From the IMG/VR virus record IMGVR_UViG_3300034105_003474, positions 1-64,000 of that record: a stretch of DNA of 64,000 bases; one strand, written 5' to 3'. This document shows, in pieces, positions 32,819-43,966 of the stretch. The notes beneath the pieces are model-generated. The model was not told the DNA's origin. It did not search any database and saw only the letters and a program-made list of their open reading frames with translations. Source of the stretch: a virus. The translations under genes were made by a program, and so were the position numbers. Numbering within the stretch: position 1 is the stretch's first letter; each line of letters begins with the position of its first letter.

Positions 32819-32858
32819 CGGTTATTTTTTAGTAGGTGTATTTGTTTTGTTATTCATA

Positions 32859-33117: not shown

Positions 33118-33504
33118 ATGAGAACTTCACGAACAGACAGATGGCAATACCGTTTCAATGCGCTTCAGCAATACACGAACAGGGCAGGTAGTTCACTTGT
33201 TCCTGCGACCCACATTGAAGTTTATGAGGGGAAGAATGTTGCTGTTGGTGCTTGGGTTGCGTACAACCGTCAGCAGTACAGAATGGGTACATTGCCTGAC
33301 GCACGCAAGCAAGCGTTAGAGACTCTCGCAGGTTGGCATTGGGAGAAACAGAAACCTGGCAGACGCTATGACATTCGCCGTGACGCAGACATTCTTTCAC
33401 GCCACGCAGGTGGAGAGCGAGTAGGTTTGCTCGCAGAACAATTCAATCTCTCTCGTCAACGAGTTCATCAGATCATCAAGAAGAAGTCAATCCCAAATGT
33501 CTAA
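33118..33504 (+). CDS. Helicase-associated-domain protein with HTH
   Basis: 128 aa. 'RWQYRFNALQQYTNRAGSSLVPATHIEVYEGKNVAVGAWVAYNRQQYRMGTLPDARKQALETLAGWHW' is a helicase-associated (HA) repeat, a helical DNA-binding domain; 'DADILSRHAGGERVGLLAEQFNLSRQRVHQIIKKK' is a helix-turn-helix. A probable DNA-binding regulator or replication protein. It begins after GTCGGGACT-ATG and starts the rightward pair here. TGCGAACACCC lies upstream at 33083. Confidence 0.7.
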   Translation: MRTSRTDRWQYRFNALQQYTNRAGSSLVPATHIEVYEGKNVAVGAWVAYNRQQYRMGTLPDARKQALETLAGWHWEKQKPGRRYDIRRDADILSRHAGGERVGLLAEQFNLSRQRVHQIIKKKSIPNV

Positions 33505-33985: not shown

Positions 33986-35482
33986 TTACCCCAACCGCTT
34001 TCCGTTTAGTTGTTGATAGGTCTGTTGCCACATTCTTGGATACCAACGCTGTGGTTTTTTACCAACCGATAGTTGCTTCAAGAGTGCAAGTCCGTCTTTC
34101 ACATTGTGTGCCATAAACACTTTGTGCTTCAAGACTTCTTTTATGCAGTCCATTGCAAGAATGTCGTGGTATCCACCGTACGCACCTGCTGTTCCAAGTC
34201 CGTGAACCTGACCGTCAGTAATCCACACGATCGGAGTTGACGAACGCTTACGCTGTTTGATTGCCCAACGAATTGCTTCGCCGTCAACACCGTTCCCACC
34301 ATTTCGTTCAGGAAGTTTGTCAACCATTTTTCCGTCTTTCGCAAGAACGAGAAGGTTTGGTTTGACATTGCTTCGGTCTGCCGAATACACCGCAACCGTG
34401 CAACCAGGACTTGCAACAGTGAGATCAAGAATGTCTTTATTGTTTAGAGACATTGAACCCGAACCGTCAATCAAGACGATACCGCCGTTGCCTTTCTTGT
34501 ATCGGTCAAACACTCGCTTCTCGGGGTCAACTAATGCGTTGCCGATTCTGCGTGGGTTACGACCAATGTTGCTTGCTGTGCGCTTGCGACCGAGACCGCC
34601 GTGTGCTTTGCGTGTAAGTGGAAGAGTACCAACAATAAGTTTTCCCCAAGTCGGTACTGCACCACTGCTTCTGCGTGAAGGTTCAGTCGGTTTTACTTTC
34701 TTTGGGTCTGCTTTCGGTTGCTGTGGTTTATCCGTTGCACCGTTGCCATTCTTGGTATCTTTCTTTGCGTTGCCTTCTTGCTTCGCTTCGTTCTCTTGCT
34801 TCGCTTCGCTTTCACCGTCTTCGTTTTCGTTTTCGTCAACAGGTGGATTTGCCAAACGGTCAATCCATTCTGCGATTCGCTCTGTGTGTGCGAACCCCAT
34901 TGGTGCGAGACCTGTGCGCTCATCTACTTCGGTTGAACCGAGAGTGCCTGTCTTGTGTGCCTTGACAAACTCCTTCTCCACTGCTTTCACAATGTCTCGG
35001 AGTGTTGTTCCCCATGCACGATTTACTCTGCGTACACCTGTGAGGAAGTCTTTGCCACCACCGCAAACCGAATAACCGACTGCTGTGTAAACCGCACTCG
35101 TCCAATCGCCTTGCTCTGCGACACGCATACCTGTAGTGAGTTCGCTTCCGTCTGCCAACAGATCAACATCAAATCCTGCTTTCTTGATAAGAAAGTTCAC
35201 ACGAACTTCCTCAACAACGATCAGTGCGTTCTCTGTTGCGATCTTGCGTTCAATCCACTTCGGGAAGTCGTCTGCGGGTGAGAACCGTGCGTGTGCCATT
35301 TCATGCGCACGAATTACACGATCAACTTGTTCGTCACCAACAGGAACAACCATGTGTTTTGTAACAACATTGGTCATTGGTTTGCCACGAACAGGTGCGC
35401 AAGTATCTACTTGCCATGCGCCCGAGTCTTTATCTTTGCGCCCCAACATTTCGGGGAGTGGTCTAATTTCTGTCTTTTGCAT
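33986..35482 (-). CDS. CobT-like protein: HExxH metalloprotease-like domain plus C-terminal VWA domain
   Basis: 498 aa. An H60-E-M-A-H64 motif (RAHEMAHARF) followed by 'ENALIVVEEVRVNFL' (possible third ligand at E91/E92) looks like a zincin or the VWA-linked metal-site region of CobT/NorD proteins. Residues ~215-275 are a charged low-complexity linker. The C-terminal VWA domain (~325-498) has the MIDAS motif DGSGS (339-343; VLIDGSGSMS) and 'TPIVWITDGQVHG'. Partner of the AAA+ ATPase encoded next upstream on the same operon. CobT belongs to cobaltochelatase, but no CobN is present, so the role here is probably different. Confidence 0.78.
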   Translation of the reverse strand: MQKTEIRPLPEMLGRKDKDSGAWQVDTCAPVRGKPMTNVVTKHMVVPVGDEQVDRVIRAHEMAHARFSPADDFPKWIERKIATENALIVVEEVRVNFLIKKAGFDVDLLADGSELTTGMRVAEQGDWTSAVYTAVGYSVCGGGKDFLTGVRRVNRAWGTTLRDIVKAVEKEFVKAHKTGTLGSTEVDERTGLAPMGFAHTERIAEWIDRLANPPVDENENEDGESEAKQENEAKQEGNAKKDTKNGNGATDKPQQPKADPKKVKPTEPSRRSSGAVPTWGKLIVGTLPLTRKAHGGLGRKRTASNIGRNPRRIGNALVDPEKRVFDRYKKGNGGIVLIDGSGSMSLNNKDILDLTVASPGCTVAVYSADRSNVKPNLLVLAKDGKMVDKLPERNGGNGVDGEAIRWAIKQRKRSSTPIVWITDGQVHGLGTAGAYGGYHDILAMDCIKEVLKHKVFMAHNVKDGLALLKQLSVGKKPQRWYPRMWQQTYQQLNGKRLG

Positions 35483-35542
35483 ATTTCCAACTTTCGTTTC
35501 TAGGTTTATGTCTCTTGCTTAGGGAGACTTGCTTACACCCCC

Positions 35543-35564
35543 ACCTTACGGCAGGGGTGTCGCA
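35543..35564 (-). promoter_or_regulatory. TGTTACACCC-box-like promoter for the VWA gene
   Basis: TGCGACACCC (35555-35564), six bases, TAAGGT (35543-35548) on the minus strand. A weaker box match than most, but with identical spacing. ACACCC (35535-35540) is inverted relative to it. Confidence 0.55.
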
Positions 35565-35571
35565 GGGTTAT

Positions 35572-36315
35572 TTAGACCGCAACCTTGTTGATTGCGATTG
35601 CGTCTAGGACGCTTTCCGCTTGCTTTCCGAACACCATTCGTGCCGAGTCTGCGTCACCAAGTGTCTTGCGTAGGTGGTCAAACGCATAGAAGGTGCGGAG
35701 TGAGATTCTGCGCTCACCTGCGTCTGCCATGCGAACCGCATACTCACGCAAGTCTGCGGACAATGCCAACAGTGCGTCAGGATGTGGTTGGTTGATACGG
35801 ATTGCTACAGGGAAACGATCTTTCAACGCTTCAGGTAGTTCTTCCATTGTCTCAATGTTGGTGGTCATAACAACACTGAACCCGTCTTTTGGTGTGATCG
35901 TCCGACCGTTGTCAGGTGATTCCCACTTTGCTGATTCAGGTGAGTCAGTGAATGCGAGGAGTGTTGCGAACACATCTGCGCCTGCTTTGTCAATCTCGTC
36001 AATTACGAGACGACCGCCACGCAAACCGTCACCCTTCCACGCTGATACTGCTTTGCCGTCTGTCCAAGACCAACCGCCTTCGCCGTTCATCTTGTAGTGA
36101 CCTTCTACTTGCGCATTGGACATGTCCTCTGTGCAGATCAAACGCCACGCACCTGCGGTAATGTCACCGTAGTTGAGACCTGCGAAAGTCTTACCTGTTC
36201 CTGGGGGACCGAATAAGATCAAACGGTCAATGCCTGCGTTGAGTGCGTTCTCAACATCTTTCCAACACTGTGGAAGATCGTTGCGCACCTTTCCTTCTAG
36301 AACTTGCTGTGTCAT
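35572..36315 (-). CDS. MoxR/CobS-like AAA+ ATPase
   Basis: 247 aa. Walker A GPPGTGKT (36-43), Walker B 'GRLVIDEIDKA' (103-111), sensor-1 'VVMTTNIE' and arginine finger R167 (ALKDRFPVAIRI). This is the compact MoxR clade of AAA+ proteins, whose members remodel VWA-containing partners. The neighbouring gene supplies such a partner. CobS-like genes are frequent in T4-like cyanophages; their target in phages is unknown. Confidence 0.85.
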   Translation of the reverse strand: MTQQVLEGKVRNDLPQCWKDVENALNAGIDRLILFGPPGTGKTFAGLNYGDITAGAWRLICTEDMSNAQVEGHYKMNGEGGWSWTDGKAVSAWKGDGLRGGRLVIDEIDKAGADVFATLLAFTDSPESAKWESPDNGRTITPKDGFSVVMTTNIETMEELPEALKDRFPVAIRINQPHPDALLALSADLREYAVRMADAGERRISLRTFYAFDHLRKTLGDADSARMVFGKQAESVLDAIAINKVAV

Positions 36316-36413
36316 TTTTCTTTCCTTCTCCGAACTCTGTTCGGTCTAATTGTTTATGTCTATTTGTATTACGCACACACTCGCTGAATGTGTGACTTCC
36401 TTGTACACCCACC

Positions 36414-36435
36414 ACATTACATGGTGGGTGTAACA
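36414..36435 (-). promoter_or_regulatory. TGTTACACCC-box promoter for the AAA+ gene
   Basis: TGTTACACCC (36426-36435), six bases, TAATGT (36414-36419) on the minus strand. The box is one arm of an inverted repeat, ACACCCACCA / TGGTGGGTGT (36404-36431). Confidence 0.65.
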
Positions 36436-36444
36436 CGGTTTGAG

Positions 36445-36852
36445 TTACGCCACCTGCGCTTCTGCGTTGGTGTTGCTCTCGGTCTTTGCGCCTTTGAGTT
36501 CCGTTACACGGATTTGCTCGTATGCGGTGATCGTGGTTACTGCTTGTGCGACATCTGCCTTGATTACACCAACTTCTACTGCGGACTTGAACTTCTTTCC
36601 GTCCACTGCTGATTTGGTGACAGTCTTGAACACCTTGTCGGAAACAAGATCTTTCAACATTTCAACGCTGTAGGAAGGACGCTCGCCCTTGACTACTGCC
36701 ACTTTGATTCCGTCAACCACTGCGTAGTCAACGCCTTCTTTTGCGAGTTCCAACTTGAAACTTGCTTCTGCCTGTGCGAGTTCTTGCTGTGCGATCTCTA
36801 GTGCTTCACGCTTCGCAAGTACTGCTTTTGCTGTTGAGGTTGTTAGTGCCAT
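36445..36852 (-). CDS. Hypothetical partner of the AAA+/VWA pair
   Basis: 135 aa. A coiled-coil N-terminus (KAVLAKREALEIAQQELAQAEASFKLELAKEGVDYAVV) is followed by 'GIKVAVVKGERPSYSVEMLKDLVSDKVFKTVTK' and a helical tail. Genes of this type commonly precede MoxR-like genes in actinophages. It may be a substrate or adaptor for the AAA+ machine. Confidence 0.6.
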   Translation of the reverse strand: MALTTSTAKAVLAKREALEIAQQELAQAEASFKLELAKEGVDYAVVDGIKVAVVKGERPSYSVEMLKDLVSDKVFKTVTKSAVDGKKFKSAVEVGVIKADVAQAVTTITAYEQIRVTELKGAKTESNTNAEAQVA

Positions 36853-36904: not shown

Positions 36905-36926
36905 ACTGTATATCAGGGGTGTAACA
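36905..36926 (-). promoter_or_regulatory. TGTTACACCC-box promoter for the gene at 36445-36852
   Basis: TGTTACACCC (36917-36926), six bases, TACAGT (36905-36910) on the minus strand. A sigma-70-type promoter lies 36 bp further upstream (36962-36990). Confidence 0.65.
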
Positions 36927-36961
36927 CGGTTATTCGTACTGACTTTCTATCTATGATAGAT

Positions 36962-36990
36962 AGTCTAGTACCTGTTTTTGGACTTGTCAA
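36962..36990 (-). promoter_or_regulatory. Sigma-70-type promoter for the AAA+/VWA operon
   Basis: TTGACA (complement of 36985-36990), 17-bp spacer, TAGACT (complement of 36962-36967). The minus-strand sequence also holds an ATCTATCATAGAT palindrome just downstream, a possible operator. Confidence 0.72.
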
Positions 36991-43762: not shown

Positions 43763-43966
43763 TTATGCGTTTCCTAACAGCGCCAATGCTTCGTCTATTT
43801 CTATGGTTGTTTTGATGGAGTGGTCGCCGTCGTATGCAACCGTGACATAGTTTGCGCCAACGGACGGGTTCTCTGCGAGATCGCAAATAGACCCGTACGC
43901 CTGTGCTACCGCATCTAGATGGTTATCTGCCTCGTAGACCATTTGCCAAGTGACTAGGTATTGCAT
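43763..43966 (-). CDS. Hypothetical phage protein
   Basis: 67 aa from ATG 43966 overlapping the upstream stop (TGATG). 'QYLVTWQMVYEADNHLDAVAQAYGSICDLAENPSVGANYVTV', acidic. No family recognised. Confidence 0.55.
   Translation of the reverse strand: MQYLVTWQMVYEADNHLDAVAQAYGSICDLAENPSVGANYVTVAYDGDHSIKTTIEIDEALALLGNA

Follow-up and report, generated by a model that had tools for sequence, protein, structure and literature searches.

Compact MoxR-class AAA+ ATPases that act together with a partner bearing a C-terminal VWA domain are exemplified by NorQ/NorD and CbbQ/CbbO (PMC13036017). In NorQ/NorD, a finger of the VWA domain enters the pore of the MoxR hexamer, the partner is twisted as ATP is turned over, and the metal ion-dependent adhesion site (MIDAS) of the VWA domain docks the target (PMC13036017, PMC9976466). 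Among viruses, cyanophages have cobS-like genes in their core genome (PMC3037559), and the viral cobST cluster has been interpreted as an auxiliary module for vitamin B12 (PMC8651126). MoxR-VWA pairs also form the core of ternary conflict systems (Kaur et al. 2020; PMC7159879). Here, we describe an AAA-VWA gene pair in the viral record IMGVR_UViG_3300034105_003474, the first 64,000 nucleotides of which (out of 144,873 bp) are the window analysed. We consider the pair, with a probability of roughly 0.6, to be a MoxR/VWA protein-remodelling machine with a zincin-type metal site in its VWA subunit, and not a cobaltochelatase.

A preliminary description of the window had listed three leftward genes, and these are real: open reading frames of 135, 247 and 498 residues occupy 36445..36852, 35572..36315 and 33986..35482 of the minus strand, encoding a small coiled-coil protein, an AAA+ ATPase and an HExxH-VWA protein, respectively. 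For all three genes, dN/dS against close relatives is 0.06-0.25. The ATPase matches Pfam AAA_5 (7e-17) and PHROG 16448 ‘ATPase’ (5e-32), and its nearest solved relatives by sequence in the PDB are midasin, CbbQ and NorQ, which bears out its earlier assignment to the compact MoxR class. Its Walker A motif (GPPGTGKT, residues 36-43; minus strand, 36187..36210) is invariant in the alignment of the family, as are D106 and E107 of Walker B (LVIDE, residues 103-107; minus strand, 35995..36009).

At E<=10, the VWA protein has no match in either Pfam or NCBIfam. Its only PHROG match is 33218, of unknown function (2e-42), a PDB sequence search with its profile returned nothing relevant, and for the VWA protein as for the coiled-coil protein, tblastn found no match in 50,697 phage records. 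In DUF2201 (PF13203), a putative metallopeptidase HExxH domain is joined to a VWA-like domain. The protein described here resembles DUF2201 in this union of HExxH and VWA, but does not match its profile.

The metal-site motifs were examined in an alignment of the 51 viral VWA proteins left after redundancy filtering. H60, E61 and H64 of HEMAH (residues 60-64; minus strand, 35291..35305) are 100% invariant, as are E91, E92 and R94 of EEVRVN (residues 91-96; minus strand, 35195..35212), in which E91 or E92 is the candidate third metal ligand; the spacing from H64 to E91 is 27 residues. The same holds for D339, S341 and S343 of the MIDAS motif DGSGS (residues 339-343; minus strand, 34454..34468) and for D400 and D423 in the remaining part of the region around the VWA metal site (GVDGEA...TDG; minus strand, 34214..34285). 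In 63 homologues from bacterial assemblies, these residues are again invariant, except that E91 is replaced by D in three. Such invariance among the viral members is far beyond chance. The protein thus combines an HExxH and a conserved downstream ligand candidate, as in zincins, with a DxSxS MIDAS in the VWA partner of an adjacent AAA+ gene, as in MoxR/VWA pairs, and the union of HEMAH and MIDAS pointed out in the preliminary description is under absolute conservation. As judged from these motifs, the VWA protein most likely carries a putative zincin-type metal site.

Viral relatives were collected by a protein search (18 loci) and by an alignment search (136 loci, 80 of them retained). In all 78 loci with intact upstream sequence, the VWA gene is directly preceded by the AAA gene, often with an overlap, while the coiled-coil gene is found upstream in 44 of the 80. 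The conserved unit is thus the AAA-VWA pair, and the three-gene operon proposed earlier reduces to a two-gene core. As to gene order, the proposal stands, since the order of the pair is widely conserved in viruses and in bacterial assemblies alike. The coiled-coil protein is an optional neighbour with sub-threshold matches only (DUF7376 and PHROG 2362). Genes of a helix-turn-helix family with a helicase-associated domain occur in 48 of the 80 viral loci, usually in convergent orientation; the copy in the window is convergent as well (plus strand, 33118..33504; Pfam HA, 6e-14).

A further 80 loci were found by scanning genomes of bacteria and archaea, mostly from Acidimicrobiaceae and other Actinomycetota, some of them on contigs of 0.26-1.2 Mb. 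A homologous AAA gene sits beside nearly every VWA match in these assemblies. The Acidimicrobiia pair, which has no name and was found in this work, shares both genes, their order and the invariant residues with the pair of the phage, and homology of the VWA protein extends over its full length (HHalign E 3e-107). It differs from the phage pair in lying within a cellular cluster, in the order AAA-VWA-LysM-nrdR-PIG-L-Y-family polymerase in 52-56 of the 80 loci, and in forming a single separate clade: 47 chromosomal sequences group together (Shimodaira-Hasegawa-like approximate likelihood ratio test, 100) on a long branch among the phage sequences. This topology is most simply read as a single transfer between a phage and a cell, in either direction. 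In the same tree, two contigs titled Bifidobacterium breve (L112 and L115) group with contigs titled as metagenome-assembled genomes (MAGs) of Actinomycetota, and their labels look doubtful.

In 14 of the cellular loci, lexA is found upstream in the opposite direction; it is divergent beside the cluster in L126, L131, L135, L136, L141, L157, L160, L165, L167 and L168, and about 4 kb away in L154. The sequence GAAC-N4-GTTC occurs within 350 bases before the AAA gene in 12 of the 14, the exceptions being L136 and L154. These SOS boxes, which lie between lexA and the pair, are no proof that the latter is SOS-induced, as autoregulation of lexA alone explains them.

The chromosomal loci also bear on a role in defence or counter-defence, which the preliminary description had raised. 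Such a role would be in keeping with the position of MoxR-VWA pairs at the core of the conflict systems mentioned above. We regard it as very unlikely: the third component of those systems (VMAP, iSTAND) was not seen among the neighbours in family scans, the PADLOC matches to IetA go no further than the P-loop, and the cellular homologue is a single, monophyletic chromosomal locus in a fixed position, unlike a defence island.

The phage pair resembles CobS/CobT of cobaltochelatase in being an AAA protein with a VWA partner. It differs in that neither protein matches the CobT (PF06213) or NCBIfam CobS profile at the thresholds used, and in the lack of the large subunit CobN. As the preliminary description had it, CobN is missing, and this is true of the whole 144,873-bp record; it is likewise absent from all 14 phage records with the pair, a count made on the phage records themselves. 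Furthermore, of 30 genomes tested that carry the chromosomal pair, none contains CobN/ChlH (PF02514); in these same genomes, the pair was found in 30 and ribonucleotide reductase (RNR) in 29. Among 246 genomes of the same phylum, CobN was detected in 55, so the search for it works, and the pair in 4, the two never occurring together. The genome counts lack phylogenetic independence, and most of the genomes are MAGs for which completeness is not known. No real CobT was found on plasmids or in the 246 genomes. A ‘DGEA..WA’ stretch in the VWA protein may resemble CobT. Since CobN is absent from all 30 genomes, the homologous pair appears to work without it, and together with the 14 phage records this argues against a cobaltochelatase. 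The usual label of a vitamin B12 enzyme is probably wrong for this pair.

Liu et al. (2021) propose that viral CobST hijacks the CobN of the host, and state that viral cobT is usually mis-annotated as a peptidase (PMC8651126). Applied here, the pair would replace or supplement CobS and CobT, join host CobN and raise cobalamin for nucleotide synthesis. This proposal was published for related viral gene pairs, and a need for B12 does exist, since the phage encodes a 642-residue adenosylcobalamin-dependent class II RNR (record positions 69,171-71,099, minus strand; L023:5171-7099), which scores 350.6 bits against TIGR02505 (cut-off 340.05). No class I small subunit was found in the 144,873-bp record. 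A related RNR is present in 13 of the 14 phage records with the pair, the phage itself included, and the class I small subunit in none of 12 tested. Nevertheless, the profile results and the absence of CobN from the phages and from the genomes with the chromosomal homologue tell against the proposal, which also leaves the HExxH, for all its absolute conservation, without a function. We therefore think it rather unlikely to apply here.

The combination HExxH...E[ED]xR plus VWA recurs in other elements. It is found in the cyanophage ‘peptidase’ encoded beside CobS (alignment A8), a protein matched in 463 phage records, and in actinophages (alignment A9), among them DSL-LC01, in which the gene is annotated ‘cobalamin biosynthesis protein’. 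Variants of the arrangement are present in Ochrobactrum phage OC, in a 111-kb phage-plasmid-like element of Klebsiella and in Halomicrobium pHmuk01. When the window family was compared with A8 and A9 by HHalign, the E-values were 0.001 and 0.0004, respectively, with the HExxH and E[ED]xR motifs aligned. The viral cobST clusters and the cyanophage CobS/‘peptidase’ pair (T4-GC 146 beside cobS) are alike in having an AAA+ gene next to or near an HExxH...E[ED]xR plus VWA gene in tailed phages. They differ in that the AAA protein of the window is only 25-33% identical to theirs, their VWA protein has about 740 residues compared to 498, and the gene order is not the same. Genes for a gp46-type nuclease adjoin the cyanophage ‘peptidase’ gene, and a dnaE-like gene lies near the pair in phage-plasmid-like elements. 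As a separate observation, matches to CobS-like ATPase genes turn up on 4,292 plasmid records; in Acinetobacter pWM99c-2 (L202) and Klebsiella pCAV1752-111 (L200), the CobS-like gene adjoins a VWA gene with a dnaE-like gene nearby, the HExxH being kept in the latter and lost in the former.

By analogy with NorQ/NorD, the AAA protein would form a hexamer that grips a finger of the VWA domain in its pore and moves it at the expense of ATP, while the MIDAS metal would dock the target protein. The N-terminal zincin-type site, formed by HExxH and E91 or E92, would then either cleave the target so presented or bind a metal for it. Complex formation, zinc binding, catalysis and a target are thus inferences for this pair. 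Two differences from the model systems should be noted: no zincin-type HExxH site such as the invariant one found here is described for NorD in PMC13036017 or PMC9976466, and the targets of NorQ/NorD and CbbQ/CbbO, i.e. NO reductase and Rubisco, are absent here.

If the site does cut, the pair could be a true ATP-fuelled metalloprotease, in which the AAA ring unfolds or presents substrates, such as proteins stuck on replicating DNA, and the HExxH domain cleaves them. The invariance of HExxH and the downstream E in the 51 viral and 63 bacterial-assembly homologues, as well as the genes for replication and repair of DNA that neighbour the pair in a number of unrelated elements, are consistent with this idea. 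On the other hand, an HExxH can be structural or metal-storing, there is no known substrate, one homologue lacks the motif and the structure model is poor (see below), so that we hold proteolysis, and with it the processing of phage or host proteins suggested in the preliminary description, as a tentative alternative only.

Several observations weigh against a remodelling machine with a zincin-type site. The homologue on the Acinetobacter phage-plasmid-like element has lost HExxH, and the site is thus dispensable in at least one lineage. The threonine of a NorD-type MIDAS is not evident in the VWA protein, in which N397 and D400 are the invariant residues of that region. The AlphaFold prediction of the protein from an 11-sequence alignment is a poor model (mean predicted local distance difference test score, pLDDT, 46.6), too uncertain for the geometry of the metal ligands to be judged, and Foldseek with the model gives weak matches to VWA domains, with a best E of 0.015. 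The homology to A8 and A9 is confined to short aligned regions with HHalign probabilities of only 20% and 36%. Within the poor model, HExxH falls in a helix (residues 51-65) and EExR in another (84-101), a zincin-like placement; a second prediction reached a pLDDT of 56.4.

With regard to the target of the proposed remodelling machine, the recurrent company of nrdR, the Y-family polymerase, the gp46-type nuclease, the dnaE-like gene and RNR makes us lean to DNA synthesis or repair, with a target that may belong to the replication or recombination of DNA or to deoxynucleoside triphosphate supply. As a sign of function, such company is circumstantial, since it is common in large phages. In a more specific form of this view, the pair would serve DNA synthesis directly, either as an activase or reactivase of the B12-dependent class II RNR, in the way that CbbQO acts on Rubisco, or as an SOS-linked, ATP-driven metalloprotease that removes proteins from replicating DNA. 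The distribution of RNR classes among the phage records fits an activase, as do the position of the cellular pair beside nrdR and the class II RNR of G007, the only one to be typed within the Acidimicrobiaceae group. This specific role is doubtful at best, however, as genome G025 keeps the pair alongside a class I RNR, and the pair and RNR genes of the phage are about 33 kb apart.

A putative promoter box, AACCnTGnnACACC-N7-TAnnnT, recurs in the phage and its relatives, with TAnnnT exactly 21 bases from the start of the box in 39 of 41 distinct copies. In the 144.9-kb record, copies with this -10 element lie at 43764, 39029, 36931, 36440, 35569 and 32155, and one box without it at 32823. All matches are on the minus strand, in a cluster among the leftward genes between 32 and 44 kb. 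The preliminary description had credited two of the three genes with a box promoter of their own; the box is borne out, and the number is corrected, as all three have one: the coiled-coil gene at 36905..36931 (AACCGTGTTACACC-N7-TACAGT), the AAA gene at 36414..36440 (AACCGTGTTACACC-N7-TAATGT) and the VWA gene at 35543..35569 (AACCCTGCGACACC-N7-TAAGGT). Each gene may thus be transcribed alone. Because of the fixed -10 spacing and the position 60-100 bases before start codons, we infer from these sequences a phage-specific promoter family, which would mark a regulon read by some recognition factor. In front of both the AAA and the VWA gene, the -10 lies within a long and strong inverted repeat, which is possibly an operator.

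Two other readings of these intergenic regions were rejected. As RNA hairpins, they give 5 pairs in RNAalifold with no compensatory change, and the TAnnnT spacing fits a promoter. The sequence CCGAAC-AGA-GTTCGG upstream of the phage AAA gene is not an SOS box, since its spacer is 3 and not 4. A sigma-70-type promoter reported earlier upstream of the coiled-coil gene is present as a match (minus strand, 36962..36990; 10 of 12) and is the sole one in the scanned region, but shuffled sequences yield 4.8 such sites, so that by itself it is no evidence. Relative L011 shares its -35 TTGACA, which L003, L007, L009 and L012 lack. A conserved palindromic stretch, CTATCTATCATAGATAG (window 36930-36965), lies upstream of the same gene and is kept in relatives without TTGACA. 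Elsewhere in the window, a 30-base repeat near TATATACGCCACCGTTCAAGTTGG occurs in five copies on the plus strand (30058, 32950, 37356, 39852 and 41190) and is perhaps a rightward control element.

If the pair does serve DNA synthesis, the names cobST and cobS would long have been wrong for these genes in tailed phages, among them the cyanophages. A chromosomal family that is free of CobN, has a fixed cluster with nrdR and shows an exceptionless HExxH in the 63 bacterial-assembly homologues makes the B12 reading directly testable, and directs attention to DNA synthesis as a process in which the pair may remodel or cleave proteins. The cellular locus in turn offers a place outside phages in which the function of the pair may be studied.

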